This document shows positions 43,353 to 59,598 of a stretch of DNA of 64,000 nt, in pieces. The stretch spans positions 488,592-552,591 of the forward strand of contig NZ_KB235898.1 of assembly GCF_000332155.1 (NCBI RefSeq), in the 5' to 3' direction. The notes beneath the pieces were generated by a model, which worked only from the letters and a program-made list of their open reading frames with translations, was not told the origin of the DNA and did not search any database. This stretch comes from Kamptonema formosum PCC 6407 (lineage in GTDB: Bacteria > Cyanobacteriota > Cyanobacteriia > Cyanobacteriales > Microcoleaceae). Within the stretch, counting starts at the first letter, position 1. Each line of letters opens with the position of its first letter. The position numbers and the translations under genes are program-made.

Positions 43353-44927
43353 ATGGAAAACCGAGTTCTCTACGTTCGTCTCCCTTGCAATCCCATTTTC
43401 CCAATTGGAGTTGTCTACCTCTCGGATCATGTTCACAAGCTGTTTCCAGACGTGAAACAGAAGATTTTCGATCTGGGTGCAGTGCCTCCTTTAGACTTTA
43501 ATAGCGCCTTAGATGCTTGCGTAGATGAATTTCAGCCAACATTGCTAGTTTTCTCCTGGCGAGATATTCAGATTTACGCACCAGTTGGCGGTAGAGGCGG
43601 GAACCCGCTTCAGAATGCCTTTGAGTTTTATTATGCTAAAAATCCTTTGATTAAGATGCGAGGCGCATTAGGGGGACTGCGATTAGCGACTTCCTACTAT
43701 GCGGAACTTTGGCGCAATTTGGGGTTAATTAAACGGGGGTTGAAACGCGCCCAAAAATATCATCCCGAAGCACGTTTAGTGGTGGGTGGTGGTGCTGTAA
43801 GCGTGTTTTATGAGCAATTGGGCCGGAGTTTACCAGCAGGAACAATTGTCTCCGTAGGTGAGGGAGAGGCGCTGTTAGAGAAATTGTTGCGGGGTGAGGA
43901 TCTTAGTAACGAACGGTGTTATATTGTTGGCGAAACTACGCCGCGCGATCGCTTAATTCACGAAAAGCCAGCCAATATTGAAAAAACCGCTTGTAATTAC
44001 GATTACATTGAAACCATCTGGCCGGAATTACAGTATTACTTTCAAGACCAAGATTTCTACGTTGGCGTACAAACTAAACGCGGCTGTCCTCATAATTGCT
44101 GCTACTGCATTTATACAGTAATTGAAGGTAAACAAGTGCGGATTAATCCTGCGGATGAAGTAGTTGCAGAAATGCGGCAACTATACGATCGCGGCATTCG
44201 TAATTTCTGGTTTACCGACGCTCAATTTATCCCCGCACGTAAATACATCGATGATGCTGTTGAGTTATTGCAGAAAATCCTTGATGCTGGGATGACTGAT
44301 ATTCACTGGGCCGCTTATATTCGCGCAGATAACTTAACGCCGCAGTTGTGCGAATTAATGGCAAAAACGGGGATGAATTACTTTGAAATTGGCATTACTA
44401 GCGGTTCCCAGGAACTCGTTAGGAAGATGCGAATGGGTTATAATTTGCGTGTAGTTTTGGAAAATTGCCGCGATTTGAAGGCGGCTGGTTTTAACGATTT
44501 GGTTTCGGTGAATTACTCATTTAATGTGATTGATGAAACCTTTGATACGATTCGCCAAACTATTGCCTATCATCGGGAATTAGAACGGATTTTTGGCGCT
44601 GATAAGGTGGAACCTGCAATTTTCTTTATTGGGTTGCAGCCTCATACTATTTTAGAAGAGTATGCGTTTAAGAAAGATATTCTCAAACCTGGTTACGATC
44701 CAATGAGTTTAATGCCTTGGAATGCCAGGAAGTTGTTGTGGAATCCTGAACCTTTGGGTTCATTTTTTGGGCAAGTTTGTTTAGATGCTTGGCAAAGAAA
44801 TTCTAATGATTTTGGCCGCGAAGTGATGGCAATTTTAGAGGAAAAATTAGGATGTGCTGATTTGGAAGAAGCGTTAAGTGCGCCTGTGGAAGTGAAGGAG
44901 AAAAAGTTAGTAACAGTTAACGGTTAA
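43353..44927 (+). CDS. Radical SAM protein of B12-binding type, photosystem-related by name
   Basis: The 524-aa protein has an N-terminal cobalamin-binding-like Rossmann part (about 1-200, LVVGGGAVSVFYEQLG) and a radical SAM barrel with the Fe-S motif RGCPHNCCYC (CxxxCxxC) near residue 245. Later motifs include WFTDAQFIPARKYIDDAVELL and EIGITSGSQELVRKM. Cyanobacterial proteins like this are annotated as photosystem II high-light acclimation radical SAM proteins; I recall that label but cannot check it. The B12 His signature (DxHxxG) is not obvious, so corrin binding is unproven. Confidence 0.75.
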   Translation: MENRVLYVRLPCNPIFPIGVVYLSDHVHKLFPDVKQKIFDLGAVPPLDFNSALDACVDEFQPTLLVFSWRDIQIYAPVGGRGGNPLQNAFEFYYAKNPLIKMRGALGGLRLATSYYAELWRNLGLIKRGLKRAQKYHPEARLVVGGGAVSVFYEQLGRSLPAGTIVSVGEGEALLEKLLRGEDLSNERCYIVGETTPRDRLIHEKPANIEKTACNYDYIETIWPELQYYFQDQDFYVGVQTKRGCPHNCCYCIYTVIEGKQVRINPADEVVAEMRQLYDRGIRNFWFTDAQFIPARKYIDDAVELLQKILDAGMTDIHWAAYIRADNLTPQLCELMAKTGMNYFEIGITSGSQELVRKMRMGYNLRVVLENCRDLKAAGFNDLVSVNYSFNVIDETFDTIRQTIAYHRELERIFGADKVEPAIFFIGLQPHTILEEYAFKKDILKPGYDPMSLMPWNARKLLWNPEPLGSFFGQVCLDAWQRNSNDFGREVMAILEEKLGCADLEEALSAPVEVKEKKLVTVNG

Positions 44928-44948
44928 CCGTTAACTGTTAACTAACAA

Positions 44949-46331
44949 TTAAGCAGTTTCGTGCTGTTTTCGCCAAGCGGGATGCCATAACAACTCCGCA
45001 GTCGATCGCTTCTCCACCATTTCCTTAGTGATAGTACATCGAGCCACATCCTTGCGGGAAGGTAACTCGTACATCACATCCAGCATCAACTCTTCCAAGA
45101 TGCTGCGGAGAGCCCGCGCACCAGTTTTGCGACGATAGGCCTCCTGTGCGATCGCCTTCAGCGCATCCCCTTGAAATTCTAACTGCACATTGTCCATCTT
45201 CAGCAGCTTTTGATATTGCTTAACCAGCGCATTTTTGGGCTCAGTTAATATCTCCATCAAAGCCGCCTCGTCTAAGGGCGAAATCACCGTCACAACAGGC
45301 ATCCGTCCCACAAACTCAGGAATTAAGCCAAACTTCACTAAGTCATCAGGTTGTGCGTGTTGCAAAATATCTGCTGCACGTTTATCCTTTGCCGGAATAC
45401 CATTAGCTATACCTTCCGCTTCTTGGGGCTGAATAAAGCCCAAAGATTTCTTACCAAGACGCTGTTCAACTATTTTTTCCAAACCAACAAAAGCACCGCC
45501 ACAGATAAATAGAATTTTGCTAGTGTCAAGTTGAATAAAATCTTGGTAAGGATGCTTGCGGCCACCTTGAGGGGGGACATTTACTACCGTTCCTTCTAAT
45601 ATTTTCAGCAAAGCTTGCTGTACGCCTTCGCCGGAAACATCGCGCGTGATCGAAGTGTTTTCGCTTTTACGGGCAATCTTGTCAATTTCATCAATGTAAA
45701 TGATACCGCGTTGGGCAGTTTCTACATCAAAGTCTGCCACTTGTAGCAGTCTGAGTAAGATATTTTCCACATCATCACCGACATAGCCGGCTTCAGTCAG
45801 CGTCGTTGCATCCGCTACCGCAAAGGGAACATCCAGCATTTGCGCCAAACTTTGAGCAAGGAGGGTTTTGCCGCAACCTGTGGGCCCAACGAGTAAGATA
45901 TTGGATTTTTGGAGTTCTACGGCATCATCAGGGGTAGGCTTGGTAGCCTTATCTCGATCCACACTCAAACGCTTGTAGTGGTTGTAAACGGCCACTGAAA
46001 GCACTTTTTTCGCCGAGTGTTGGCCGATTACGTGGTTGTCCAAATGTTGCTTGATTTCTACTGGTTTGAGAATGGCAGTTGTAGAGGTTTTGGACTTTCC
46101 GGGTTTGCGTGGTTGCGATCGCGTGGGGTTTGAGAGAGATTCTCGCATCTCTGAGTTAGACGTTCCCACAGCAGCTTTGCTTGAGTCAAAAAACTCCTCT
46201 TCTAAAATTTCGTTGCACAGTTCCACACACTCATCGCAAATGTACACGCCGGGCCCGGCAATTAACTTACGGACATACTCCTGCGACTTGCCACAAAAGG
46301 AGCATCTTAATTGGGAATCATATTTAGACAT
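44949..46331 (-). CDS. clpX: ATP-dependent Clp protease ATP-binding subunit ClpX
   Basis: The 460-aa AAA+ unfoldase has an N-terminal zinc-binding domain ([10 protein letters not shown], then ICDECVELC), Walker A ([12 protein letters not shown]), pore loop (GYVGDDVE), Walker B ([10 protein letters not shown]) and the IGF-like loop region before residue 300. It unfolds tagged proteins for ClpP. The length is slightly long because of a linker of about 30 residues ([20 protein letters not shown]). In many cyanobacteria clpX follows tig-clpP2; here no clpP or tig lies upstream in the window. Confidence 0.97.
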
Positions 46332-46625
46332 ATCTGCCTCTTACATTACTGTTGCGGTTGTTTGTCCCGATGAGGGGAGCTGCGGCTGGATCGACTTTTG
46401 CTGTATCCCTTGGGAGTTAGGCTTTTCGCTCTCTACTTCTAAACTAGCACTGACTGCTATTTATTTGAGGAAAGAAACTATTTGCGGTTGCTGGGCTTGT
46501 TTTCTGGGAGGTGCGTTGGCAAAGTCCGCCGTAGGCTCGCTATTTCCTGGTAGAAAGGTGCGATCGCGTCTCAGTTAGCAAAACTCATATAATCTAAGTA
46601 GGAAAAGAGCGAAAGGTAATTTTAT

Positions 46626-47081
46626 ATGAAAGAATTAAATAAATTAGAACTAGATGGAATTAAGAACATGGGGGCAGTTTACACTCAGGTTAAGCTGACA
46701 AATGCAATAGATGAAGCTCTAGTCAGTCGGGGTTTGCTCGCACCTCGGCTATTGCGTGAGTGTGAAACGGAAGGTCTAGTAGATACAGGCTCAGTTTACC
46801 TAGTAATTTCAGCAAAGATAGTAGAGCAGTTAGGTTTACGAATTATAGCACAGCAGCTTGTCAAGTATGCTGATGGTCGTCAGGAAACTGTAGGAGTAAC
46901 GGAGGCTATATTAATTGAAGTTGAGGGGCGTAGGACTACGGAGGATGCACTGGTGACAGGGGATGAGGTATTAATTGGTCAGGTGGTTTTGGAGAAGTTA
47001 GATTTGCTTGTAGATTGTAAAAATCAGCGGTTGATGGGTAATCCAGCTAATCCTGATTATCCTGTAACTTATATTAAGTGA
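46626..47081 (+). CDS. Retropepsin-like clan AA aspartic protease, second copy
   Basis: The 151-aa protein has the catalytic VDTGSVYLVISAKIVEQLG motif (Asp53) and a later LIGQVVLEKLDLLVD hydrophobic-Gly segment. The first 14 residues (MKELNKLELDGIKN) precede a MGAVYTQVKLTNAIDEA segment that is the usual N-terminus, so the ATG at 46668 is also possible. The Shine-Dalgarno AAAGG favours 46626. Unlike the 16.8-17.2 kb copy, it has no partner gene upstream; a long tandem array follows the stop. Confidence 0.78.
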   Translation: MKELNKLELDGIKNMGAVYTQVKLTNAIDEALVSRGLLAPRLLRECETEGLVDTGSVYLVISAKIVEQLGLRIIAQQLVKYADGRQETVGVTEAILIEVEGRRTTEDALVTGDEVLIGQVVLEKLDLLVDCKNQRLMGNPANPDYPVTYIK

Positions 47082-47084
47082 AAA

Positions 47085-47268
47085 GAAGGGGCTAGGGACT
47101 AGGGACTAGGGACTAGGGAAAGAGGAAGAGAGGGAGATGGGGGAGATGGGGAAGATGGGGGAGATGGGGGAGATGGGGAAGATGGGGACGATGGGTAATT
47201 AGCGATTAGCGATTAGCCATTAGCGATTAGCCATTAGCCATTACCAATTACCAATTACCAATTACCAA
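47085..47268. repeat. CTAGGGA, GGGGAGAT and TTAGCCA/TTACCAA arrays
   Basis: The array starts 4 bp after the protease stop and ends at the stop of the convergent gene on the minus strand (47270). Units change along its length from 7-mer CTAGGGA to 9-mer GATGGGGGA to 7-mer CATTAGC and CCAATTA. Confidence 0.85.
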
Positions 47269-47269
47269 T

Positions 47270-47926
47270 TTATCGCAGAGTAACTTTGACTGATGTTTGT
47301 ATTGATTTACTGGCCACTATCAGAATGCGGTAGACTCCAGACTGAGGTAATTTAGCTAAAGCTTCGCCGTTGCCTTGATCGAGCAGTTCTCCCGATGGAG
47401 ATTCGATCGCTACATCTACATCCTTAGCAGTGACGGTCATTGTTTGCCCAACTTTCGCCTGAATTGTTAAAGGCTGGATTTCGTAGGCGGATAATTTAAG
47501 TTCAATGCTGGTATCTTTTGCTCCTCGCGCCATCGGGAGTTTGCGGTCTGGTTTATATGACCAGATTGCTTTAAAGTCACGTTCCAAAACAAAGCTAGTT
47601 GTCTGTTTTTTGGGGGTGATCCTTACTCGATAAAGACCTGACTCCGGTAATACCCCTACCCATTGGCTGACCTCTGTTTGAATTATGCCTAATCTTTGCC
47701 CGCTGGGGCTAAACAGTTCTGCTGTCAAGCTTCCCGCCCACAGAGATAAAGTTAGTTCGCGCCCTTTTATTCCTTCAAAAATGTAAGTAGTAGGTTTAGC
47801 GATTGTCTCTCGAATTTCGGGGCTTGACATTCTCCGAATTGGCTCAATAGTTGGGGTTGTGGTATTGCCAAGTGCAGTTGTTGCCACAAATACGGCCAGT
47901 AGCCCTGACAGTATTAGTTTTTTCAT
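47270..47926 (-). CDS. Secreted protein of unknown function, 218 aa
   Basis: The protein has a clear signal peptide (MKKLILSGLLAVFVATTALG) and a beta-rich mature part with two similar halves (SLTAELFSPSGQRLGIIQTE and DVDVAIESPSGELLDQGN), which resemble pre-peptidase-type sandwich folds with the pattern xSPSGxxL. It probably sits in the periplasm. I recognise no catalytic motif. The gene is convergent with the protease at 46.6 kb, separated by a tandem array. Confidence 0.65.
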   Translation of the reverse strand: MKKLILSGLLAVFVATTALGNTTTPTIEPIRRMSSPEIRETIAKPTTYIFEGIKGRELTLSLWAGSLTAELFSPSGQRLGIIQTEVSQWVGVLPESGLYRVRITPKKQTTSFVLERDFKAIWSYKPDRKLPMARGAKDTSIELKLSAYEIQPLTIQAKVGQTMTVTAKDVDVAIESPSGELLDQGNGEALAKLPQSGVYRILIVASKSIQTSVKVTLR

Positions 47927-48250
47927 TTAATGTCCCAGTTCTGATGGCATGAGGTGCTGTAGGACATTACTTCGGTTTCCCTGGCTACGCCGGAAAAAAT
48001 GTGGCGATCGCGAACTGGGATAATGATGAGTTCTAGAGGTGGGTTGAGCTGATAAATTTTGTCTCTTACCAAAGATATTTGGCGGTTCTATGGGTTTGAA
48101 ATAACCCGCCGTAATTAATTCCTAAAATATAATTAATTCCTAAAATTAATAAGTCCCCTTCAGATGATCTGAAGAGGACTTTGTGAAGAGTGGGGCGATC
48201 GCGCTTTGTGGAGGGCGATCGCGCGTAATCTAGTATGTATGCCTAATTGA
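47927..48250. other. Gap with hlip terminator
   Basis: The stretch holds a strong hairpin near 48151-48182, followed by GCGATCGC (HIP1-type) octamers. No other gene is visible in 324 bp. Confidence 0.45.
48151..48182 (-). terminator. Likely terminator of the downstream-facing hlip
   Basis: AAGTCC-c-CTTCAGAT-g-ATCTGAAG-a-GGACTT is a near-perfect self-complementary run about 70 bp past the stop of the HLIP gene at 48.25 kb, read on the minus strand, with TTATTAATTTT after it. Confidence 0.6.
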
Positions 48251-48397
48251 TTACATCAAGCCCAACTGGGACAAAATACCTTGACCAGTCAGGAACTCAG
48301 TAGCAAGACCAATTACAAAGCCCAGCATGGCCAGACGACCATTCCAAGTTTCGGCGAAATCGGTAAAGCCCAATTTGGTTGTTTCTTTAGTTTCCAT
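48251..48397 (-). CDS. High-light-inducible protein (HLIP), 48 aa
   Basis: This single-helix protein (METKETTKLGFTDFAETWNG followed by RLAMLGFVIGLATEF) has the chlorophyll-binding motif ExxNGRLAMxGF, here with Thr-Trp before Asn. It is a short HLIP of the HliA type and protects PSII assembly against excess light. Start ATG at 48397 with an AGGTTCG upstream. Confidence 0.93.
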   Translation of the reverse strand: METKETTKLGFTDFAETWNGRLAMLGFVIGLATEFLTGQGILSQLGLM

Positions 48398-48548
48398 GAT
48401 CGCGAACCTCGTTTAATTTCAACCTTGTTAAGTAATGTAACACAAGGACAGAAACAATGCAACATTTTTTTACATTTTTGTCAAAGGCTTGCTGTGAGGG
48501 AAACGGAGGCAGTGCTGATTCATTCTTTTAAAGCTATAGTCTGACAGA

Positions 48549-48659
48549 GACTAAAGTCCCTGTCTCAAGTGCGAAAGTCGTCTGAAGACGACTAGACAGC
48601 TAGTATTTGAGTCGGTTTAAACCGACTTCAGCTATTAGGCAGGGACTTTAGTCCCTGAC
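48549..48659. repeat. Dispersed multi-hairpin repeat (GACTAAAGTCCCTG)
   Basis: The sequence GACTAAAGTCCCTGTC is repeated in inverse form (CAGGGACTTTAGTCCCTG) around AAGTCGTCTGAAGACGACT and GAGTCGGTTTAAACCGACTT hairpins. This is a common cyanobacterial repeat pattern; the remaining gap from 48398 to 48751 holds nothing else. Confidence 0.7.
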
Positions 48660-48751
48660 GGGTTTCGGGAAAATGAAATAGCTCTGCCCCTCTCCCCGAT
48701 CTTCCTCTGAGTAAGCTATAACGACAAGTAAGGCATCTGGCGGTAAATCTG

Positions 48752-51700
48752 ATGAAACTGATTAAACAAACTACTCTTCATTTCCAGGAAGCAGGTTCCG
48801 ATAAGGTTTATGAAGTGGATCTGTGCCAGGTCGGGGAAGACCTTTATCTGGTAAACTTCCGCTACGGTCGCCGAGGTACGAACCTCAAAGAAGGGACAAA
48901 AACTGATAAAGCCGTGCCTTTGGCACAAGCTCAAAAAGTATTTGATAAGCTGGTTGGGGAAAAGACGAAAAAAGGCTATCGCGACGTTACGAGTGCAGGG
49001 GTAAGTGCTGCGCCTGCGGTACCCCAAACCGCCACAGTTACAGAGATTTCAGTTGGAGAGCCGCGTAAACAAGCTATTATCAATCGTCTCGCTCGTGGTA
49101 GCAATAGTAAATGGCCCCTCGAACGTGCTATCTGGCGTGCGGGGGAATTGAAGATCCGGGAAGCTGCGCCGTTGTTAATTCAATTATTTCGTAGTGGCGA
49201 TCGCTTAAGAGATTATTGCATTGCTTGGGCCTTGGGTTGGTGCGGCGATGAGAGTGCAATTCCCCCACTTCAAAGAATTGTAAGCGGCGATCGCCTTCCT
49301 ATTGAACCCAAAATGCCCGAATTTGTTTGCCGCATCGCCTGGGAAGCAATTGTTAAATTATCAGATGAAGAAACAAAAGCAACATTGCGCTCTGAAAAAA
49401 TAAAACAATTACCGCCAGAATTGCGAGAAATAGCACAAAATGGTTCAGCGGAGGCATTCTCCACAGCCTTAATTAGTTATCTTAATAACAATGAAAGTCA
49501 GCGTTTTTCCGTACTCGATACTATCTATCAAATTGATAACAATTCAGTGCGACCCGCCCTACTTAATATTTTATCTACTGCACCGCTTCAACCCAACTAT
49601 TTTAAACAAATTCGTCACATTTTCAAGATGGCTGAATATCGCCATGATGCCGAAGTTTTTGCGATTCTTACTCGTCGATTTGAAAAAGAATCGGCAATGT
49701 TCCGCAGCGATGGTAATTATATCCGACTTCCAGAAGGCGGGTACTTGAGAAAATACGAATATCATTATAATCCTCAAGCCCGCAAGCACGAAAGAGTTAA
49801 ACTCAATGAATTTGTCCAGGAAATGGAGAGCGATAATGCGAGAATTGCCTATAGCAATAAAACTCGCGACTATCTACAACGGCGGGTTTGGCGAACTCTT
49901 AAACAATTAGGTGAAGAAAGTGATTCTGATTATATAAAAATGGCTGTCAACCTTCTTCTTCAATATACCGATGCTGATGCCGTAGAAGTTAAAAACAGCG
50001 ATTTCCAGGTATGGAATTACTCTGACATGACTCGCATTCATTATAACCGTGACTGGGATAGTTATGCTGGCTATTTAACATTTAACCACATTTTATATGA
50101 GAATAGTCCCCGCTATGTTTTATTCCCAAATAACAAAGCATGGCGTTGTCAGGAAAACTATAAACCTGGAGATCCAGAACCCGAAGTTCGAGAAGAAGCA
50201 TTTCCTCAACTGTGGCAGCAAAACCCAGAAGCACTGCTACAATTGTTATTAGCAAGTAACTGTCAGCCCGTTCATCATTTTGCCGTTAAAGCTTTAAAAG
50301 CTTGCCAACAATTTTGTGCAAATATTGACATTGACACAATTATCAAACTTCTTGGCAAACCCTACGCAGTTACAGCAGAGCTGAGTTTGAATTTAGTCAT
50401 AAACGGTGGCTATCACAGACAGCCAGCCAACAAGAAATTAGTTCTTGCTGTTGCCAATTCTGTATCTCAAAATGCGCGGACATTGGCTTACCGCTGGATA
50501 GAAGAACAGCGGGAATATTTCTTAGAAGACAGCCAATTTATTGCTGCATTAGTGACTAGCGCACAAACAGATACTCGCCAATTTGCTCGTCGATTGTTGA
50601 GTTCATCAATTATTAATGATAACACTGCCAGAGTATTAATCGCCCGAATTATTGCTGAATTGTTAGCTTTCCCAGGAGAACCAACCGAATTAGGGGAAAT
50701 AGCAAAAGAAATCACCGAAACTTTGCTAATTAGCTTTACACCACAACTGCGAAATTTAGGATTAGGAATTATCCTTGATTTACTCAGACATCCCCTACCT
50801 GAGATTCAAGAATTAGGGGCGCGGATTTTACTAAATCACGAAATCAACGCTGCTAATTTACCCCCGAATTTGATAGAGTCTTTACTAGAATCGCCCTACG
50901 AACGAGTGCGAGTAGTGGGAGTGAGATTATTTGGTCAATTACCCGATGAAACTTTGATCGGTTCTCAGAGTATTTTGATAATAGCAATGGCCGTTAATCC
51001 TGTGGCTGAAATCCGCAATGCGATTAGACCAGTCATTCGGCGTTTAAGCAGAGAATATCCAGCTTTTGCTACTCAGTTAGTCTCTGAGTTTATTGATGTG
51101 TTAATGATTCCAGAAAGACATCAAGGCGTTCACAGCTATTTAGTTAGTTTACTGCGAGAAGATATTCCCGAATGGATGTCTAGTATCGATCGAAATACCG
51201 CTTTGCGACTGCTTAAAGCTAAATCCTCTGCGACTCAAGAATTAGGAGGTTTTATCCTGGGAGTACATTACCCAACTTGGGCAGCAGAATTTGATATAAT
51301 AGACATAGTTAAGCTGGCTAGTCACGAAATTTTGTCAGTGCGAGAAGCAGCGCGAAAAATGTTTGTAGCAAATTTAGATCGCATTCGTAGCAATTCCCAA
51401 GAAATGTTAGCGGCTGTCCGCCTACTTGAGTCAAAATGGGATGATTCGCGGGAATTTGCCCATCAAACTTTTAAGACAGAATTTTCTAGCGAAGAATGGA
51501 CTCCAGAGGTGATGGTTAGCATCTGCGACAGCATTCGGGAAGACGTGCGCCAATTTGGACGAGACTTAGTGACTCGCAATTTTCAAGCAGCTTACGGACA
51601 AGATTATCTGCTAAAATTTAGCGAACATCCTTCGGGAGATATGCAGTTGTTTGCTACTAATTATCTAGAAAGTTATGCCGTAGATAGTCCCGATCGATTG

Positions 51701-51970
51701 AGAGAGTTAATGCCTTATTTTATCACCGTATTATCGCGCGTAAATCGGGGTAGAGTTGCTAAACAGAGAATTTTTACCTTTCTGGATGCAGAAGCGCAAA
51801 AAAGTCAAGCAGCGGCGATGGTTGTAGCCGAGATTTTAACCCGGCAATCTGCTACTATTGCCATTGGGGATAAGGCCGCTGCAATTCAAACTATGTTAAA
51901 AATTCACAAGGTTTATCCGCAGCTTAATTTACCTATTCAGGTGAAAGAAGTTGTAGAAGTTAGAAGTTAG
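48752..51970 (+). CDS. WGR domain protein with long HEAT-repeat region, 1072 aa
   Basis: Residues about 1-80 form a WGR domain (VNFRYGRRGTNLKEGTKTD), known from PARPs, polyA polymerase and conflict-linked genes, where it binds nucleic acid. The rest is largely alpha-helical with HEAT-like repeats (IREAAPLLIQLFRSGDRLRD, EIQELGARILL, VREAARKMFV). No enzymatic motif is seen. It is followed 10 bp later by HicA and later by a SWIM protein. Such WGR-HEAT proteins often lie in MoxR/vWA-type clusters; here neither partner is visible. It is likely a nucleic acid-recognising scaffold. Confidence 0.75.
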   Translation: MKLIKQTTLHFQEAGSDKVYEVDLCQVGEDLYLVNFRYGRRGTNLKEGTKTDKAVPLAQAQKVFDKLVGEKTKKGYRDVTSAGVSAAPAVPQTATVTEISVGEPRKQAIINRLARGSNSKWPLERAIWRAGELKIREAAPLLIQLFRSGDRLRDYCIAWALGWCGDESAIPPLQRIVSGDRLPIEPKMPEFVCRIAWEAIVKLSDEETKATLRSEKIKQLPPELREIAQNGSAEAFSTALISYLNNNESQRFSVLDTIYQIDNNSVRPALLNILSTAPLQPNYFKQIRHIFKMAEYRHDAEVFAILTRRFEKESAMFRSDGNYIRLPEGGYLRKYEYHYNPQARKHERVKLNEFVQEMESDNARIAYSNKTRDYLQRRVWRTLKQLGEESDSDYIKMAVNLLLQYTDADAVEVKNSDFQVWNYSDMTRIHYNRDWDSYAGYLTFNHILYENSPRYVLFPNNKAWRCQENYKPGDPEPEVREEAFPQLWQQNPEALLQLLLASNCQPVHHFAVKALKACQQFCANIDIDTIIKLLGKPYAVTAELSLNLVINGGYHRQPANKKLVLAVANSVSQNARTLAYRWIEEQREYFLEDSQFIAALVTSAQTDTRQFARRLLSSSIINDNTARVLIARIIAELLAFPGEPTELGEIAKEITETLLISFTPQLRNLGLGIILDLLRHPLPEIQELGARILLNHEINAANLPPNLIESLLESPYERVRVVGVRLFGQLPDETLIGSQSILIIAMAVNPVAEIRNAIRPVIRRLSREYPAFATQLVSEFIDVLMIPERHQGVHSYLVSLLREDIPEWMSSIDRNTALRLLKAKSSATQELGGFILGVHYPTWAAEFDIIDIVKLASHEILSVREAARKMFVANLDRIRSNSQEMLAAVRLLESKWDDSREFAHQTFKTEFSSEEWTPEVMVSICDSIREDVRQFGRDLVTRNFQAAYGQDYLLKFSEHPSGDMQLFATNYLESYAVDSPDRLRELMPYFITVLSRVNRGRVAKQRIFTFLDAEAQKSQAAAMVVAEILTRQSATIAIGDKAAAIQTMLKIHKVYPQLNLPIQVKEVVEVRS

Positions 51971-51995
51971 TGTTTATGACGTGGCAAACGGAGTC

Positions 51996-52235
51996 ATGCC
52001 CAAAAAAATCAGAGAGTTAAAAAGTATGTTATTGAAAGCAGGATTTACTTACCGTACTGGCAAAGGTAGTCATACCAAATGGTATCATCCTCTTCTATCT
52101 GGGGTAATTACTCTCTCAGGTAAAGATGGTAATGATGCTAAACCTTACCAGGAGGCAGATGTAAACAATGCAGTTCAGAAAATAGAAGAAATTAACAGAG
52201 AAGAAGAGGAAAAACAAAATGATTTGTCACTATAG
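51996..52235 (+). CDS. HicA mRNA interferase-type toxin
   Basis: About 79 aa, with a HicA dsRBD-like fold: MPKKIRELKSMLLKAGFTYR, then the catalytic-type His motif KGSHTKWYH. The preceding frame is open from GTG at 51981, but ATG 51996 with GGAG upstream is better. HicA cleaves mRNA and is neutralised by HicB. It overlaps the next gene by 17 bp. The C-terminus (EEINREEEEKQNDLSL) is acidic and longer than a minimal HicA. Confidence 0.82.
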   Translation: MPKKIRELKSMLLKAGFTYRTGKGSHTKWYHPLLSGVITLSGKDGNDAKPYQEADVNNAVQKIEEINREEEEKQNDLSL

Positions 52236-52446
52236 TATGATTATCCAATGGTCAGATGAAGATCGGTGTTTTGTAGTCAGTCTCCCTGAGTGGGGGAAAT
52301 TTTGTCACACGCATGGAGATACATATCAAGAAGCACTTAAAAATGCTCAAGAAGTGTTAGAACTTCTGATTGAGTCATCATTAGAAGACGGGAAACCTTT
52401 ACCGCAACCTAAGATATTTGGAAAATCTTTTCAGCCAGTGGGATGA
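52219..52446 (+). CDS. HicB-like antitoxin, first copy (75 aa)
   Basis: A partial RNase H fold domain of HicB type: MIIQWSDEDRCFVVSLPEWG, then CHTHGDTYQEALKNAQEVLE. It lacks a C-terminal DNA-binding domain, so autoregulation may need another factor. It overlaps hicA by 17 bp and is a candidate antitoxin for it. Confidence 0.8.
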   Translation: MICHYSMIIQWSDEDRCFVVSLPEWGKFCHTHGDTYQEALKNAQEVLELLIESSLEDGKPLPQPKIFGKSFQPVG

Positions 52447-52452
52447 CGAACC

Positions 52453-52677
52453 ATGAAAGATTATCACTTTAATATTAATGTTTTCTACAGTGAAAAAGAT
52501 GAGGGTTATATTGCCGATATTCCCGATTTAAAATATTGCTCTGCTTTTGGTTTAACACCAGAAGAAGCACTCCATGAAGTAATAATTGCTAAAACTGCTT
52601 GGCTTGAGGCCGCTATGGCCGAGAGTAAGCCTATTCCCACCCCCAAATATCGACCCGCAATTTACCAAGCTAGTTGA
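52453..52677 (+). CDS. HicB-like antitoxin, second copy (74 aa)
   Basis: Another HicB-like domain (DYHFNINVFYSEKDEGYIAD, then AFGLTPEEALHEVIIA), 6 bp after the first. The tail differs from the first copy (AMAESKPIPTPKYRPAIYQAS). No separate HicA gene accompanies it in the window, so it may work with the same toxin or be an orphan. It also lacks a DNA-binding extension. Confidence 0.8.
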   Translation: MKDYHFNINVFYSEKDEGYIADIPDLKYCSAFGLTPEEALHEVIIAKTAWLEAAMAESKPIPTPKYRPAIYQAS

Positions 52678-52686
52678 GGAAAAACA

Positions 52687-54330
52687 ATGGAATTCAACTA
52701 CTCTTACAAAGGCAACTCAGGTGTTAGCGAACGGGGTGGAAATACCCAGATGTCTTTCTCCCCAGACACCAAACGCCCACCTACTTATTTTATCGGAGAA
52801 TTGCGTCAAAATGTTGCATTTCGCGAGGCGATTAGTGCCTTACACGATGTTGTAGTCTCCGATATGCGATTCCAGCCCAAAGATAAAACTGCTTATAAAG
52901 AATGGCGTGCCAAACAGGAGGAAATCGACTGGCAAATTGTCGCCAATCAGCGTCAAGACTTAGCAGCAAAAATCCAGCCATTGCAGGCAGAATTAAACCA
53001 ATTTTACCAGCGCCGTTCTGAACGTTTAAAACCTTATTATCGAGCGCGAGAAGCCTTCCGCCGCTATGTTTGGCAAAAAGAATTAGACTTTTATTTTGTC
53101 TTCGACCCAGTAATTACCGTCCATCCAGATGAAGTATTCTTTGAATGTTTCAGCGTAGATGAATCGAGTTATGGCCGTTTGGGTGCAAGCTACGAGGTGT
53201 TTAAAAATATCAATGAATTTGCTTGCGGCACTACCAATGTTGATTACTCGGCGGCCCTTTATGATGAATTTCAAAAAGTTCGCAGTTACAAAACAACTTT
53301 GCTGCAAGTTGACCCCTCTGGCTTTGAAGTTCAAACTAGCAATGAAGAGGTATTTAAAGAAGTTAAAATTGATTTACCCGACAGTTGGGTAAGAGGTTTT
53401 CTACAAGTTAGTTCGGCAATGTCCTTACCTGCGACGCAATTTGATTTGCATCCGATGGACATTCATAATATGTGTTTTATCCTGCGTCGCCACAAAGAGA
53501 AAAAAGGGCCGCGCAGTCTGCGATACCATCTGAAACCAGGGGAACCAGTGCGGATCGTTTTTGAACCTTGGGGGACAGAAATTATTTGTCACCGTTCGAT
53601 TTATCATGGTTCGCAAGAACAGGAAATCAGAGTTTGGGGCCGTCGCCGCCTCCACATTTTAGAGCGTTTAATTCCTGTAGCTAAAAAGTTTACTGTACAT
53701 TTATTAGGTACGGGAATGCCGTCCTTTTATGTAGCTGATTTAGGCGATATGTCCTTTACCTTGGGATTATCGGGATGGAGCGCCAATGATTGGTCAAAAT
53801 CTGGTAACTTTGATTTAATGGCTCCCCGTGCTGATGTTGATAGTTGGACGCAACAACTTATTTTTGATGCTTTGCGGGAAAATTGGCGGGAAACTCCTGA
53901 TAGTTTGGCCCAGCGGCTTAAGTTAAGTCGGGTCGCAGTTTTAGGCGCTTTAAGTGCTTACACTCAGGCGGGAAGAGCTATTTACGATTTGAATAAGCAG
54001 GTTTATCGGGTACGGGAATTAAGCCGAGAACCTTTGCCAATGGAACGGCTACGTTTTGCTAATGAGCGAGAAGAGAAAGCGACTCGTTTTCTAAGTCAAA
54101 ATGCAGTCCAGATCGCTGCGTCAAATATTGACGTGGCTGGCGCATTTACTTTACAAGGAAATGTGAATGACAAAGAAAAAAGTTTTAATCCCTGCTTGAC
54201 AGTTGACGCAGATGAGCGTATAATTCAAGCAGAATGTAATTGCAATTGGCATCAGCAAAATAAGCTGTACAAAGGCCCTTGCGAGCACATTTTGGCTCTG
54301 CGGATGCAATACAGCCGCCAAAGTCAATAA
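52687..54330 (+). CDS. SWIM zinc-finger protein, 547 aa
   Basis: Residues about 500-540 have a SWIM zinc finger (ECNCNWHQQNKLYKGPCEHI, CxCx13CxH), which typically contacts DNA or protein. The N-terminal 500 residues show no other recognised domain, apart from a helical, charged first third and a beta-rich centre. It starts 9 bp after the second HicB-like gene, and so probably belongs to the transcript that begins with the WGR-HEAT gene. The start could also be the ATG at 52750. Function unknown; DNA binding is inferred from the finger. Confidence 0.8.
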   Translation: MEFNYSYKGNSGVSERGGNTQMSFSPDTKRPPTYFIGELRQNVAFREAISALHDVVVSDMRFQPKDKTAYKEWRAKQEEIDWQIVANQRQDLAAKIQPLQAELNQFYQRRSERLKPYYRAREAFRRYVWQKELDFYFVFDPVITVHPDEVFFECFSVDESSYGRLGASYEVFKNINEFACGTTNVDYSAALYDEFQKVRSYKTTLLQVDPSGFEVQTSNEEVFKEVKIDLPDSWVRGFLQVSSAMSLPATQFDLHPMDIHNMCFILRRHKEKKGPRSLRYHLKPGEPVRIVFEPWGTEIICHRSIYHGSQEQEIRVWGRRRLHILERLIPVAKKFTVHLLGTGMPSFYVADLGDMSFTLGLSGWSANDWSKSGNFDLMAPRADVDSWTQQLIFDALRENWRETPDSLAQRLKLSRVAVLGALSAYTQAGRAIYDLNKQVYRVRELSREPLPMERLRFANEREEKATRFLSQNAVQIAASNIDVAGAFTLQGNVNDKEKSFNPCLTVDADERIIQAECNCNWHQQNKLYKGPCEHILALRMQYSRQSQ

Positions 54331-54352
54331 GTTAATAGTAAGTTAGTGAATT

Positions 54353-54615
54353 ACGCGCCGTAAGTACCCGGTATTCCGTATCCTTACAAATGGTAAACAG
54401 CCTTGCAATCCGGGCGGTGGATCGCCGTCCTTGCGCTTAGTTCTAGCACGCATCACTAGCCTGCTCTTGACTGTGCGGGCTTTCAGTACTACTCGCTATT
54501 CCGGTTTAAATTCTGTGAATAGAATGAGCGAGTAGTACTGAGCCCGCTGGAGTTGAGCAGTCTAGTTCTGAGGGTTTACGAAGGGGCAACCAATTGGCGG
54601 CGCGTGATTTTTTTT
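54353..54615 (+). ncRNA. Candidate structured RNA ending in a U-tract
   Basis: ACGCGCCG (54353-54360) pairs with CGGCGCGT (54598-54605), closing the structure, and T8 (54608-54615) follows. Inside is a long rod: ACTAG (54455)/CTAGT (54562), CTGCTC (54461)/GAGCAG (54555), GCGGGCT (54475)/AGCCCGC (54541) and a perfect 14-bp stem CAGTACTACTCGCT (54484-54497)/AGCGAGTAGTACTG (54527-54540). It lacks an ORF. The pattern fits a 260-nt RNA with an intrinsic terminator. It could also be a decayed transposable repeat. No known RNA family could be assigned by eye. Confidence 0.45.
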
Positions 54616-54769
54616 ATAATAATTAAAACGGAAATGATATTAGTTGCGATCTGTCATTGTTCGCTGTGCTCCGCAATCGCAAGGTATTGAGATTGCTTCG
54701 GGCTTGCTTCGTACCTCGCAACTGCGCTACGCTTGGCTCGCAATGACAAGTATTTAATTGGATCGTGAT

Positions 54770-55165
54770 ATGACTCTCAACGACACTGAACAACAAACTC
54801 CTACTGATACCTTACCTACCGATGGTACTACTCGGATACGGCCCTGGGGTAAAGTTACGATCTTAGAAGAAGGCGAACGTTATCGGATTAATCGCATTGA
54901 AGTAAAACCAGGTCATCACATGAGTGCTCAAATGCACTATCACCGTAGCGAACACTGGGTAGTTGTTTCCGGTACTGCTAAAGTTATCTGCGACGGAAAA
55001 GAGCAGATTTTGATGCAAAAACAATCAACTTATGTACCGATGAACACGCCTCATCGCTTAGAAAATCCGGGGGTGATTCCCCTAGTAATGATTGAAGTGC
55101 AAAACGGGGAATATCTAGGTGAGGATGACATCATCAGATTTCCAGAAGATCCTGAAGAGGAGTAA
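54770..55165 (+). CDS. Mannose-6-phosphate isomerase-type cupin
   Basis: The 131-aa cupin matches the C-terminal PMI-II-like domain: RPWGKVTILEEGERYRINRI, PGHHMSAQMHYHRSEHWVVV and HRLENPG. It has the metal-binding His/Glu pattern of cupins (HYHRSEHW...H). It may interconvert mannose-6-phosphate and fructose-6-phosphate or regulate GDP-mannose synthesis. A TTG at 54758 opens the frame, but ATG 54770 is preferred. It is monocistronic. Confidence 0.88.
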   Translation: MTLNDTEQQTPTDTLPTDGTTRIRPWGKVTILEEGERYRINRIEVKPGHHMSAQMHYHRSEHWVVVSGTAKVICDGKEQILMQKQSTYVPMNTPHRLENPGVIPLVMIEVQNGEYLGEDDIIRFPEDPEEE

Positions 55166-55224
55166 AAATTAGCCTCAAATTATCATAGTAGGGTGGAGGC
55201 TACCCACCCTAAATTTCTAATAAC

Positions 55225-55917
55225 TTAAGATCGCACTTTTCCATCCGGCATCCTAGTATCTTGCATCGCCGCATCCCTCAGATTCACATTGGCGATATTA
55301 GCATCTTTTAAGTTCGCACCAGTCAAATCCGAACCTCCCAGATTTGCGCCACTGAGATTCGCACCAGTCAAATCTGCATCCCGCAGGTTAACTCCCATTA
55401 TTTCCATCCCCATTAAGCTACCGCCCTTAAGACTGACATTAGTTAAATTCGCGGTAGATTGGCGAGTATTCCTGAGATTTGCACCCACCAGATTTGCACT
55501 TTCCAAATTTGCACCTAGCAAATTTGCATAGCTAAGATTAGTACGTTCCAGATTGGCAATCACCATACCTGCCAGAGTCAGATTAGCACGGCTTAAGTTA
55601 GCCTTACTCAAATTTGCACCGTGGAGTCTAGCTCCAATCAGAGTAGCACTCTGCAAATTAGCTTTAGTCAAATTTGCCTGATTGAGCTTCGCTTCATTGA
55701 GATTCGCTCCTTTGAGGTTAGCACCGCTGAGGTTAGCGCCGCTGAGATTGGCTCCGCTAAGGTCAAATCTTGCTAGTTTTGCTCCCGTCAAGTCGCATCC
55801 CGGACAATTTTTGGTTTCAAGTAACTGCTTAAGATGCTCCGCATTTTCTGCTTTCACTGGAGCACTAAAACCAAGTGTCAATAATAATGCCGTTGTTGCC
55901 AAAATCCCAATTCTCAT
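55225..55917 (-). CDS. Secreted pentapeptide-repeat protein
   Basis: The 230-aa protein has a signal peptide (MRIGILATTALLLTLGFSAP), a short linker with two Cys (KNCPGCDLTGAKL) and then about 32 pentapeptide units of the A(D/N)LxX type (SGANLSGANLSGANLKGANL). The repeats form a right-handed quadrilateral beta-helix. The export signal suggests a periplasmic or lumenal location. Such repeats have no fixed function. The opposite-strand ORFs are shadows. Confidence 0.9.
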   Translation of the reverse strand: MRIGILATTALLLTLGFSAPVKAENAEHLKQLLETKNCPGCDLTGAKLARFDLSGANLSGANLSGANLKGANLNEAKLNQANLTKANLQSATLIGARLHGANLSKANLSRANLTLAGMVIANLERTNLSYANLLGANLESANLVGANLRNTRQSTANLTNVSLKGGSLMGMEIMGVNLRDADLTGANLSGANLGGSDLTGANLKDANIANVNLRDAAMQDTRMPDGKVRS

Positions 55918-56161
55918 CTCCCCAACCTCACCAAAGTCTCCTTATTCTTAAATATGCACTATTTTTCAATACTGCTGAGTGATTATGGTCTGTGGGGACT
56001 GTGACTGTAATCACTGATTGGTAATGGTCAGTGGTTCGTTGTTAGAGATTTTAGTAAAATATATTCTCAAATTAGCGATCGCACTTTTCAGAATATGGTA
56101 GAAAGAGCGATCGCCTCAAGTTACAGGCTAACCACCCATTAAATTAGGCGAAAAATTATCC
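55918..56161. other. Gap before higA
   Basis: The 244 bp carries a GCGATCGC site or two and short AT-rich runs. I see nothing else. Confidence 0.35.
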
Positions 56162-56563
56162 CTAGATAAACAAACTAGGTGAAACCTTAAAGTAATCACC
56201 AAGCGCTTTAGCCTGTGCTTTGCTAATCGCCCGTTTACCATTCACAACCTCAGACACAACACCACTCGAAGACTTCATAATGTCTGCTAAATCCCCTTGA
56301 CTAAGGCCGCTAGATTCCAGAATATGTTGCAAAATCTCGTGAGGCAAACTTTTGTCCATCGGATAGTGTTCTGTCTCATAGGCTTCAATCAGCGTTACTA
56401 ACAATTTATGTAAAGCCCTCTCCTCTGGAGAGCGGTTTTTCGCAAAAGTTAGCCTTTCTGCTACTTTCAGGAGGCGATCGTATTCCTCTTCAGTTTCGAT
56501 CGCCTGGGGAGCAATTTCTGACAGTAGCTTTGTATAAATAACTCGGTCAAAAGTAATCGTCAT
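56162..56563 (-). CDS. HigA-type XRE-family antitoxin
   Basis: The 133-aa protein, from ATG 56563, has an N-terminal helical part (DRVIYTKLLSEIAPQAIETE) and a C-terminal HTH (SGLSQGDLADIMKSSSGVVS, then AKALGDYFKVSPS). HigA binds its promoter and neutralises HigB. The frame is open upstream to 56647, but that would overlap the toxin. It overlaps the toxin relic by 17 bp, so it was once the second gene in a higBA operon. Because the toxin is broken, the antitoxin may be an orphan or serve another toxin. Confidence 0.82.
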   Translation of the reverse strand: MTITFDRVIYTKLLSEIAPQAIETEEEYDRLLKVAERLTFAKNRSPEERALHKLLVTLIEAYETEHYPMDKSLPHEILQHILESSGLSQGDLADIMKSSSGVVSEVVNGKRAISKAQAKALGDYFKVSPSLFI

Positions 56564-56729
56564 TTTTCCATTTATCTTTGTCGTATTCAGCGTGGGTGAG
56601 GAAATATTTGTAGTAAACGGTTTGGTCTTCGTAGTCAATACCAACAATCAAGCGATAATCATTGCCTTTGATATTAAAAACGGTGAAATTTCCTACCGCT
56701 TCAGCATCTCCATCTCCAGCTTTATACCA
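56547..56729 (-). pseudogene. Truncated HigB-type toxin
   Basis: The minus-strand open frame of 60 codons reads WYKAGDGDAEAVGNFTVFNI, then KGNDYRLIVGIDYEDQTVYY and KYFLTHAEYDKDKWK, the C-terminal half of a HigB/RelE toxin. It begins after an in-frame TGA and has no start; about 35-40 N-terminal residues are lost. Position WYKAGDG|AEAVG hints at an internal deletion. It overlaps higA as in an intact pair. Confidence 0.75.
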
Positions 56730-56952
56730 TCAAAACTATCCCCAACTAAGCCAAATTTCCGCAAATTCTTGACTCTTAATTATTCCTACCTTATTATTAG
56801 AATAGTTTTAAAGTCGATTTTAAGGTGTAATCTTTATAAATATAATCGGTTATATATACGCCCACATATTCCCACAAATAGATAGTACCTCCAAACAATC
56901 AAAAAAGCAAGGGGGTAAAGCAAAAATTTTTACTCAACCCCCCAACCCTTAC
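56730..56952. other. AT-rich gap between higBA remnant and the solute-binding gene
   Basis: No gene or strong hairpin is seen. The ORF of 97 codons on the plus strand in this area is a shadow of the higBA region and AT-rich sequence. Confidence 0.35.
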
Positions 56953-58236
56953 CTACCTTTGATTCCAGGCATTCGCCGCATCAGTCACAGCCGCCTCAAC
57001 TGACTTTTGATCCAACATCGCGGCCTGCAAATTCTCATAAATCGCCTTTTGCAACTTCTTAATATCCTGCATCGCCGGAATCAGAATCTCCGCATCCTTC
57101 ATCTGACTCGCACTTACCATCCTCGCCAAATCCGCCGACTTAGCATCCGCCGCCACACTCTGAAAATAACCATCCTGTAAAGCCGCAACAGTTGACGGCA
57201 AAACATTCGCTGCCTTGGCAAAAGTAAGCTGATTTTGGTTGTTAGTTACATAAAGGGCAAACTTCACAGCCAAATCGGGTACATCCGTATTACGGGGAAT
57301 CACCAAATTCATCACCGCCACACTTTTCTTACCCGTTTTCCCCGTAATTTGCGGAGCTGCGGTCGAAACCTGCGCTATAGTCGGAGCATTCTGCGCGATC
57401 GCAGACAAAAATTGCGGCCCCGTACCCAACAAAGCCGTCTCCCCCGCCTGATAAAGTTCAATCCCTCGACGGTGGCCTTGAATTAACGCCTCCTTCGGTA
57501 ACAACCCACCCTTGTACAAATCAACCCAATACTGGAAAACCGCCTTACCTTCAGGAGTATTAAACGCCGCCTTTCCTTGGTCATCAACCAAACGGACTCC
57601 CATTTGCACAAAAGACTGCAAAACCTCAGCCGAATCTTCTGGGACAAAGGTTACAAAAAAAGCATACTTGCCCGTTTTTTCCTTAACCTGCTTCGCAACG
57701 TCAGCCAACTCAGTATAAGTGGTCGGAGGTTTACTCACTCCCGCCTGCTTCAGGAGTTCCGAATTATAAATCATGACCTGCGTTGTTAGATACCAAGGAA
57801 TGCCAAAACTTTTACCGTTGAGAATGCTAGCTTTCCAGATATTAGGGAGGTATTGCGATCGCACAGCATCAGGAACCTTAGCATCCAAATCCAGCCAAGC
57901 ATTGCGTCCTGCCAACAGCGAAGCAAAATCGGGATTAAGATTTACCACATCCGGTGCAGTTTTTGCCGAAACTGCTGCTAAAATTTTACTTTCCATCGCC
58001 GACCAAGGCACATCCACCCATCGCACCTTCACCCCCGGATTTTCTGACTCAAACTTAGCGATCAGTTGATTAAAATAATCAGTAAACTGAGGTTGGAGCT
58101 GCATCGTCCAGAACTCAACTTCTTGCCGATTCTTGTTCTCAGCATTAGGAGTACCAGTAGCACAGCCAAATGCGATCGCTACCAACAGCCCCAAAAGGGC
58201 AAAAATTCCAAACCGTTTCCAAGTCTTGCGTTTCAT
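56953..58236 (-). CDS. Sugar ABC transporter substrate-binding lipoprotein
   Basis: The 427-aa protein has a lipoprotein signal (MKRKTWKRFGIFALLGLLVA then IAFGCATG lipobox) and a family 1 extracellular solute-binding fold (EVEFWTMQLQPQFTDYFNQL, NPGVKVRWVDVPWSA, TLGTGPQFLSAIAQ-like region). It should capture a sugar in the periplasm and pass it to an ABC permease. No permease or ATPase gene is adjacent. The frame is open to 58434 across a tandem array; ATG 58236 fits the signal, ATG 58287 is an alternative. Confidence 0.9.
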   Translation of the reverse strand: MKRKTWKRFGIFALLGLLVAIAFGCATGTPNAENKNRQEVEFWTMQLQPQFTDYFNQLIAKFESENPGVKVRWVDVPWSAMESKILAAVSAKTAPDVVNLNPDFASLLAGRNAWLDLDAKVPDAVRSQYLPNIWKASILNGKSFGIPWYLTTQVMIYNSELLKQAGVSKPPTTYTELADVAKQVKEKTGKYAFFVTFVPEDSAEVLQSFVQMGVRLVDDQGKAAFNTPEGKAVFQYWVDLYKGGLLPKEALIQGHRRGIELYQAGETALLGTGPQFLSAIAQNAPTIAQVSTAAPQITGKTGKKSVAVMNLVIPRNTDVPDLAVKFALYVTNNQNQLTFAKAANVLPSTVAALQDGYFQSVAADAKSADLARMVSASQMKDAEILIPAMQDIKKLQKAIYENLQAAMLDQKSVEAAVTDAANAWNQR

Positions 58237-58289
58237 TTTATTGATTCTTTGACCATCATGGTTATTCTCAGCTAAATTGGATAGCATAA

Positions 58290-58500
58290 TTTTGGAGCAG
58301 GGGAGTAGGGGAGATGGGGAGCAGAGGAGATGGGGAAGATAGGGAAGATAGGGAAGATAGGGAAGATGGGGGAGATACGGGAGATGGGGAAGATGGGGGA
58401 GATACGGGAGATACGGGAGATGGGGAATTACCAATTACCAATTACCAATTACCAATTACCAACTAACAACTAACAACTAACAACTAACAACTAACAAAAT
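58290..58500. repeat. GGGAAGATA/GGGGGAGAT and TTACCAA/TAACAAC arrays abutting pilM
   Basis: 9-mer GATAGGGAA, GATGGGGAA and GATACGGGA units run from about 58300 to 58425, then CAATTAC and AACTAAC 7-mers to 58498. The last unit ends 2 bp before the pilM start, with no Shine-Dalgarno. Confidence 0.85.
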
Positions 58501-59595
58501 ATGGTTAACTTTTTTAAAGGATTATTTTCCAATCGCCAGCCCGGAATCGGCATCGAATTGTCTTCAGATTTAATCAAAGTCGTTCAGCTTCAAAAAAAAG
58601 GATCGGCATTAAAACTAGGGATATTAGCTACAGCAGAAGTCCCCGAAGACATCGTACAAGAAGGTCAAATAGTCGATCCGCCAACAATGGCAGAACTGAT
58701 TAGATCCCTACTCGCCGATAACAAAATCACAACCAAACGAGTAGCTACAGCTATTCCGGGCAGAGAAGCAGTAATCCGCTTAATCCCCGTTCCCGCCGAA
58801 CTCAACGACGACGAACTGCGGGAATACATGAACGCCGAAGCAGGTCTATACTTACCATTCCCCAGAGACGATGCAGACGTAGACTATCAGAAACTCGGCT
58901 TATTTGTCGATGAAGATGGCATAGAAAAAGTACAAGTAGTCCTAGTAGCAACCCGGCAAGAAGTTACAAATACTTACATCAATACATTTCAAGAAGCAGG
59001 GCTAACAATTGATGTCTTAGAAGTCACAAGTTTTGCATTAATCCGCACCATGCGCGACCAACTGCAACAATTTTCTGCCCAAGAAGCAGCAGTGCTAACA
59101 GACATAGAATTCGATAGTACAGAGCTAGCTATAGTAGTAGATGGCATACCTCAATTTAACCGGACAATTCCCATCGGCACATACCAAATTCAAACCGCCC
59201 TCAACCAGGCGATGAACTTGCCCCCCACCAGAGACACGAGGGAAGTTCAAGGCATGACCCTCCCAGTTACAGATACAATGGGCACATCAGGGGGGGATGC
59301 GAATCCAGGTACAAATGCCATGATTAAAGTATTAGGCGAATTAGCCGACGAACTGCGCCGCTCGATCGATTTTTACCTCAACCAGAGTGAAGAATTAGAA
59401 GTGGCGCAACTGCTGCTGGCAGGGCCCGGAGCAGCGATCGGCAAACTCGACGAATTCTTTATGCAGAGGTTGAGCTTGCCAGCTAGCCAAGTAGATCCAG
59501 TGGAAGCCCTCTCCCTGGAATTAGAACAAGAAATTCCCCCAGAACAACGAACTGGTTTGGGAATAGCATTGGGTTTAGGACTAAGGGAGGTTTGA
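58501..59595 (+). CDS. pilM: Type IV pilus assembly ATPase-like protein PilM
   Basis: The 364-aa actin-fold protein has the PilM pattern (GIELSSDLIKVVQLQKKGSA, then AVLTDIEFDSTELAIVVDG). PilM binds ATP and the N-terminal tail of PilN at the cytoplasmic face of the inner membrane and links to PilB and PilT motors. It heads a four-gene cluster pilM-N-O-Q. PilP, present in many proteobacteria, is absent. It starts directly after a tandem array. Confidence 0.93.
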   Translation: MVNFFKGLFSNRQPGIGIELSSDLIKVVQLQKKGSALKLGILATAEVPEDIVQEGQIVDPPTMAELIRSLLADNKITTKRVATAIPGREAVIRLIPVPAELNDDELREYMNAEAGLYLPFPRDDADVDYQKLGLFVDEDGIEKVQVVLVATRQEVTNTYINTFQEAGLTIDVLEVTSFALIRTMRDQLQQFSAQEAAVLTDIEFDSTELAIVVDGIPQFNRTIPIGTYQIQTALNQAMNLPPTRDTREVQGMTLPVTDTMGTSGGDANPGTNAMIKVLGELADELRRSIDFYLNQSEELEVAQLLLAGPGAAIGKLDEFFMQRLSLPASQVDPVEALSLELEQEIPPEQRTGLGIALGLGLREV

Positions 59596-59598
59596 AGC

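Follow-up and report, generated by a model that had tools for sequence, protein, structure and literature searches.

A probable type XIII retron without a neighboring reverse transcriptase

The locus at positions 48,752–54,615 of the window, a 64,000-nucleotide stretch of Kamptonema formosum PCC 6407 (contig NZ_KB235898.1, positions 488,592 to 552,591, forward strand), most probably comprises part of a type XIII retron, namely its template RNA (msr-msd) and its WGR-HEAT and SWIM genes, while the reverse transcriptase (RT) is encoded elsewhere and would act in trans. The retron is likely to serve in anti-phage defense. Its protein families are known; what sets it apart is the split, non-contiguous arrangement. 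A sequence-only reading of the window had proposed a defense or stress module of WGR-HEAT, HicAB and SWIM genes, and overlooked the type XIII identity, the msr-msd-like RNA and the distant RT.

According to the list of open reading frames (ORFs), five genes follow one another on the same strand between 48,752 and 54,330, with intergenic gaps of 10, 6 and 9 nt and a 17-nt overlap between HicA and the first HicB; all were present in the order and orientation that had been claimed (Table 1). The WGR-HEAT protein matched the PADLOC profile WGR_XIII over residues 1–1067 (1301 bits) and passed the Pfam cut-offs for both WGR and HEAT_2, and the SWIM protein matched SWIM_XIII at 798 bits over nearly its whole length. 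Its zinc finger, also named in the sequence-only reading, scored just under the Pfam SWIM cut-off (19.3 vs. 19.6), yet all 99 aligned homologues had kept the CxC...CxH pattern unchanged. The typing of retrons that includes type XIII reportedly goes back to Mestre et al. 2020. Close copies of the SWIM protein occur in Kamptonema animale CS-326 (98% identity) and Kamptonema sp. UHCC 0994 (96% identity), the latter in a closely similar locus. The term "retron type XIII" is used in a paper employing PADLOC and agrees with the family names (PMC11953036, in its available text).

RVT_1 gave four matches in the K. formosum genome: two group II intron-type RTs, one of them a short piece below that family's cut-off, an RT–Cas1 fusion (contig C11, 89,921–90,535) and a 466-amino-acid RT on contig C7. 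The last matched RT_XIII at 660 bits and was the sole RT_XIII of the genome; RT_XIII, WGR_XIII and SWIM_XIII all have nearly end-to-end matches there. It carries NALPH at residue 232, YADD at 340 and VTG at 390, and NAxxH, YxDD and VTG were found in 51 of 51 homologues; NAxxH and VTG are given as retron RT features in the available text of PMC6868368. The closest PDB entry was the RT of Ec86 (E = 2.5e-47). The window lies on contig C1, and the distances to the contig ends place at least 655 kb between locus and RT. No RT was found in the same cassette at this locus, and the system is therefore best named a split variant rather than a standard member of its type. In a comparison of 51 RT loci including this one, each with up to ~1.5 kb of flank, the upstream stretch of the K. 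formosum RT and its downstream gene, which matches a proteasome subunit (PF00227), were shared only with one genome (G002); we thus saw no constant new partner gene.

The RNA downstream of the SWIM gene

The structured-RNA candidate of the sequence-only reading was borne out. Positions 54,331–54,625 folded with z = −6.3, and none of 200 shuffled sequences folded equally well. The outer stem pairs a1 (54,349–54,359) with a2 (54,599–54,609) at pair probabilities of 0.93–1.0, and the T-run follows. Complementary ends and a long stem are the traits ascribed to retron msr-msd RNAs in the available text of PMC6868368; both are present here, and the RNA looks like a retron msr-msd.

An alignment of 45 sequences contained 61 predicted pairs, 35 of which showed double-sided changes. 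In comparison with shuffled data, 94.6% of cells were paired (82.8% expected), the 35 double-changed pairs stood against 23.4 expected, double-changed cells numbered 314 (85 expected) and the score was 0.358 (0.148 expected); none of 500 shuffles reached the observed value on any of five measures. Pairing fell to 34–44% once the partner column was slid by one to three positions. Each of the 5 pairs in the outer stem and of the 18 in the long stem (helix 7) had double-sided changes in some sequence, and the apical hairpin varied in sequence among relatives with its pairing kept. A run of at least five Ts occurred within the last 36 nt in 39 of the 45 homologues. No Rfam family fitted the RNA. 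A model built from relatives' sequences, R1, matched the window at 54,393–54,586 with 215 bits, this copy being itself part of the model, and detected at 111.7 bits the RNA of Sulfidibacter corallicola, which lay outside the building set and is placed 62 nt ahead of its RT. There the order is WGR, SWIM, 334 nt and a 532-amino-acid RT (RT_XIII, 609 bits), so that WGR, SWIM and RNA follow one another as in the window; the K. formosum system differs in having its RT at least 655 kb away, the RNA beside the effectors and HicAB inserted. S. corallicola, with its linked RT, was the only example met outside the cyanobacteria.

Taken with the T-run, the a1/a2 stem resembles an intrinsic terminator, and the RNA could be read as a terminator or regulatory untranslated region of an autonomous WGR-HEAT/SWIM pair, the RT serving another RNA. 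This we regard as very improbable, the least likely of the alternatives considered. R1 found a single copy in the K. formosum genome, next to SWIM, with no second RNA of the family, and a scan of 4.4 kb around the RT gave no RNA. S. corallicola and four further genomes (G061, G070, G137 and G159) have the RNA upstream of the RT, at a distance of no more than about 300 nt. In G146 it is 68 nt from the RT and there is none near SWIM; it also adjoins the RT in G162 (67 nt) and G191 (114 nt), although the contig of the former ends immediately after SWIM and the latter lacks SWIM.

Some variation was seen around the RNA. Between the outer arm and the RNA core, at 54,360–54,386, an additional small hairpin (GTAAG...CTTAC) is present in K. 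formosum and G002 and absent from G001. A second, more diverged RNA copy occurs a few kilobases from the first in G119, G074, G083 and G062 (loci L058, L101 and L034, and in G062), and on another contig in G101 and G153.

Table 1. Features of the locus (positions in the window)
Feature	Positions	Strand	Remarks
WGR-HEAT protein	48752..51970	+	1072 aa; WGR_XIII, accessory or effector protein of type XIII retrons
HicA	51981..52235	+	84 aa, GTG start; optional insert in WGR–SWIM slot
HicB-like antitoxin 1	52219..52446	+	75 aa; optional insert; Pfam HicB_lk_antitox 37.1 bits
HicB-like protein 2	52453..52677	+	74 aa; optional insert; Pfam HicB_lk_antitox 20.4, under cut-off 27
SWIM_XIII protein	52687..54330	+	547 aa; predicted PCNA-like clamp protomer, winged-helix-like part, SWIM zinc finger
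Predicted retron msr-msd template RNA with outer stem	54349..54609	+	a1/a2 pairing, covariation, R1 match
Apical hairpin of long stem, presumed within msd	54483..54541	+	15-bp perfect inverted repeat
T-run at a2 end, terminator-like transcript end	54608..54615	+	eight T

Joint inheritance of linked and split systems

We counted the four parts in 196 genomes. SWIM was counted in 54 genomes, even a fragment being accepted as a match; RT in 53, out of 96 that had any match, the other 43 (among them G024 and G031) being dropped as distant, lacking the type XIII N-terminus or small remnants; WGR in 54 of 60, with six weak matches dropped, that of G031 included; and the RNA in 54 of 61, with seven dropped at E values of 1e-8 or weaker. 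SWIM and RT occurred together in 52 genomes and were both missing from 141; SWIM alone was scored in G031 and G060 and RT alone in G191, the score of G031 arising from a SWIM remnant that was kept and RT and WGR remnants that were dropped. These three genomes are 81–86% complete. The RNA accompanied the RT in 53 genomes and stood without it only in G060. WGR and SWIM were both present in 52 of the 196 genomes, 42 of which had them no more than 10 kb apart. The four parts are thus inherited together, whether the RT is linked or not, and the RNA belongs to the same system as the WGR and SWIM genes and is no afterthought.

Among the 52 genomes with both SWIM and RT, the two were within 10 kb in 19 and provably farther apart than that in 26, with 7 undecided. 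Separations on a single contig were 27 kb (G100), 638 kb (G103), 1.15 Mb (G176) and 5.18 Mb (G146), the last being ~1.1 Mb if that contig is circular. In 26 of the 33 non-linked genomes the RNA lay no more than 3 kb from SWIM; in 2 (G146 and G162) it was that close to the RT, and in 5 to neither. The linked/far label took 7 undirected changes on the RT tree, at least 5 by starred branches, and 10 undirected changes on the SWIM tree; the outgroup is linked. Across the 26 genomes with far-apart genes, RT and SWIM distances were concordant (Mantel r = 0.82, 0 of 2,000 permutations).

Had the retron fallen apart once the RT left, the RNA and the WGR–SWIM genes would be relics, decaying or repurposed. 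Decayed copies do exist, in G031, G034 and G006. Against this, SWIM and RT were essentially full length in all 26 far-apart genomes, with a single internal stop (in the RT of G132), and compensatory changes preserve the RNA pairing. In G031 (81% complete), SWIM, RT and WGR lie on three contigs, all as fragments with stops, as though lost jointly. We hold a relic to be very improbable.

The literature searched, which did not extend to the paper founding the type, showed no retron described as split in nature. Relative to retron Eco1 (Ec86), the K. formosum system has a related RT core, with ~135 extra residues ahead of it, and in both the RNA combines complementary ends with a long stem; Eco1 is however a contiguous cassette in the available text of PMC6868368, and differs further in that the window RNA measures ~260 nt and its partner proteins come from other families.

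R1 also matched weakly (E values from 1e-8 to 9e-5) in G025, G035, G045, G053, G057, G179 (contig C4) and G181, each time a few hundred bases downstream of an RT match without the type XIII N-terminus and on its strand. These possibly belong to a related type of retron in which the RNA follows the RT reading frame or overlaps its end.

A variable slot between the WGR-HEAT and SWIM genes

The sequence-only reading had placed HicAB at the heart of the module, as a toxin pair sharing a transcript with a WGR sensor and a SWIM effector. On that account the five genes form one abortive-infection operon and the RNA is incidental. The genes are indeed co-directional and tightly spaced, HicA is a full Pfam match (HicA_toxin 34.5 bits, cut-off 27, with a GSH motif) and at least 13 of the 52 genomes have a HicB related to the first one in the same slot. 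However, no such HicB is among the matches listed for the slot in the other 39, and the WGR–SWIM gap is at most 264 nt in 23 of the 52, scarcely space for a HicB. HicA matches accompany the slot HicB in 8 of the 13 genomes; in the remaining five (G002, G060, G131, G163 and G175) a HicA search gave no match even at E = 10. The second HicB matches the close relative G001 over 20 residues only, and SWIM co-occurs nearly always with the RNA and the RT. We consider such an operon very improbable.

The slot is variable, and HicAB is cargo or an add-on outside the conserved core. In Oscillatoria PCC 10802 the slot (L042, 4,024–8,000) holds an NB-ARC/STAND-type NTPase, a RelB-like antitoxin and a HicB, and the gap looks like a slot for toxin–antitoxin and defense genes. 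HicBs of the first one's kind also occur elsewhere in the genomes compared. As a toxin–antitoxin system, the window copy has HicA and one HicB adjacent and above their Pfam cut-offs. The naming of both small proteins as HicB-like held for the 75-residue protein, with the 74-residue one below the cut-off; both are short, and the Pfam scan found a DNA-binding domain in neither, as had been said.

The defense module proposed earlier thus stands as a single-strand candidate whose WGR-HEAT and SWIM genes travel together, and is not supported as regards HicAB as its core toxin pair. The concern that the two genes would usually be separated proved unfounded, and the concern that HicAB might be a chance insertion was largely justified. 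Its suggested kinship to MoxR/vWA NTP-dependent conflict systems found no support near the locus: a Pfam scan of 15 window ORFs (43,353–60,510, the five of the locus included, other small ORFs lying outside the scan) gave neither domain, and the one AAA+ gene among them has a ClpX zinc finger.

Predicted clamp fold and proposed mechanism

The predicted structure of the SWIM protein contains a two-domain clamp fold (residues 34–365) with a helical insert at ~68–131, a winged-helix-like part at ~386–442 and the SWIM zinc finger at ~506–538. By this prediction, one of the retron's partner proteins has the shape of PCNA, the sliding ring on DNA. The predicted model shares the two-domain fold of PCNA and other sliding clamps at a sequence identity of only 7–13%, and the helical insert, the winged-helix-like part and the finger are extras. 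Arg315, 319, 320, 321 and 327 are invariant and lie in or beside a helix that would face the hole of the clamp, which is no more than suggestive of ring assembly around DNA. No PCNA-like retron effector was reported in the literature searched, the founding paper of the type not being covered.

In the mechanism that we propose, the RT from its distant gene would reach the RNA in trans and copy the msd part into msDNA, and RT and msDNA would keep the WGR-HEAT and SWIM proteins inactive. Phage interference with the msDNA or the RT would release the two proteins, whose action on DNA would stop growth. The restraint is modelled on retrons in which, in the available text of PMC12548924, an RT–DNA complex sequesters a toxic effector until infection. 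On the predicted model, SWIM may be a clamp-like subunit, binding DNA or closing around it, and WGR-HEAT its DNA-end-binding partner. HicA-HicB-HicB is an optional toxin–antitoxin insert between their genes. The T-run after a2 would terminate the RNA before the RT gene, also in the linked cyanobacterial genomes; the RT would then need its own transcript, which may have allowed its relocation.

A bolder and more tentative version, which we consider possible but doubtful, is a dispersed cyanobacterial immune system: one inherited unit whose parts, the RT, template RNA, clamp-SWIM and WGR-HEAT, are spread over two to four unlinked loci, and which kills by a retron-controlled PCNA-like clamp. Here the RT–msDNA particle would mimic a DNA–RNA junction and hold the clamp until disturbed by phage; the freed clamp and WGR-HEAT would then settle on DNA ends or forks and so halt replication.

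Several points weigh against a type XIII retron with its RT in trans. The genomes share ancestry and the co-occurrence counts are not independent. WGR occurs without SWIM in G003 (55% complete) and G147, and the sets are incomplete in G060 (RNA and SWIM, no RT) and G191 (RNA and RT, no SWIM). In 7 of the 33 non-linked genomes (G006, G020, G028, G034, G110, G153 and G162) contig ends or lengths leave the separation undecided. Retrons are described as contiguous msr-msd-RT cassettes in the available text of PMC6868368, unlike the arrangement here. In retrons the priming guanosine is usually part of an AGC and sits where the arm stem ends on its inner side; a candidate exists at CAGC (54,398–54,401), but the GTAAAC/GTTTAC stem around it pairs with a probability of 0.12–0.13 and is absent from the alignment-supported pairs. 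By eye, S. corallicola has CGGC at that place. The copying of the msd, the restraint, the toxicity and the phage protection are proposals, and the clamp fold is a structure prediction.

Implications and further observations

Retron surveys begin at the RT and inspect the adjoining DNA, according to the available text of PMC6868368. Should RT and template RNA prove to be unlinked in many cases, RT-based surveys would miss RNAs, which here mostly lie with the effectors, as well as whole systems, and defense finders that require adjacency would probably miss split retrons too. Natural trans-acting retrons would be useful for DNA production in cells, RT and template being separate units already. 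A PCNA-shaped effector, if true, would represent a new target logic, mimicry of the replication clamp, and render the type XIII mechanism directly testable.

Past the RNA, 54,640–54,760 has by eye the look of a dispersed repeat, and locus L007 has a different repeat-like stretch at that place. Homologues of SWIM_XIII extend beyond the genomes studied: at least 5,562 were found at E ≤ 1e-10, some in Xanthocytophaga, Labilithrix, Desulfonema and Aliikangiella.
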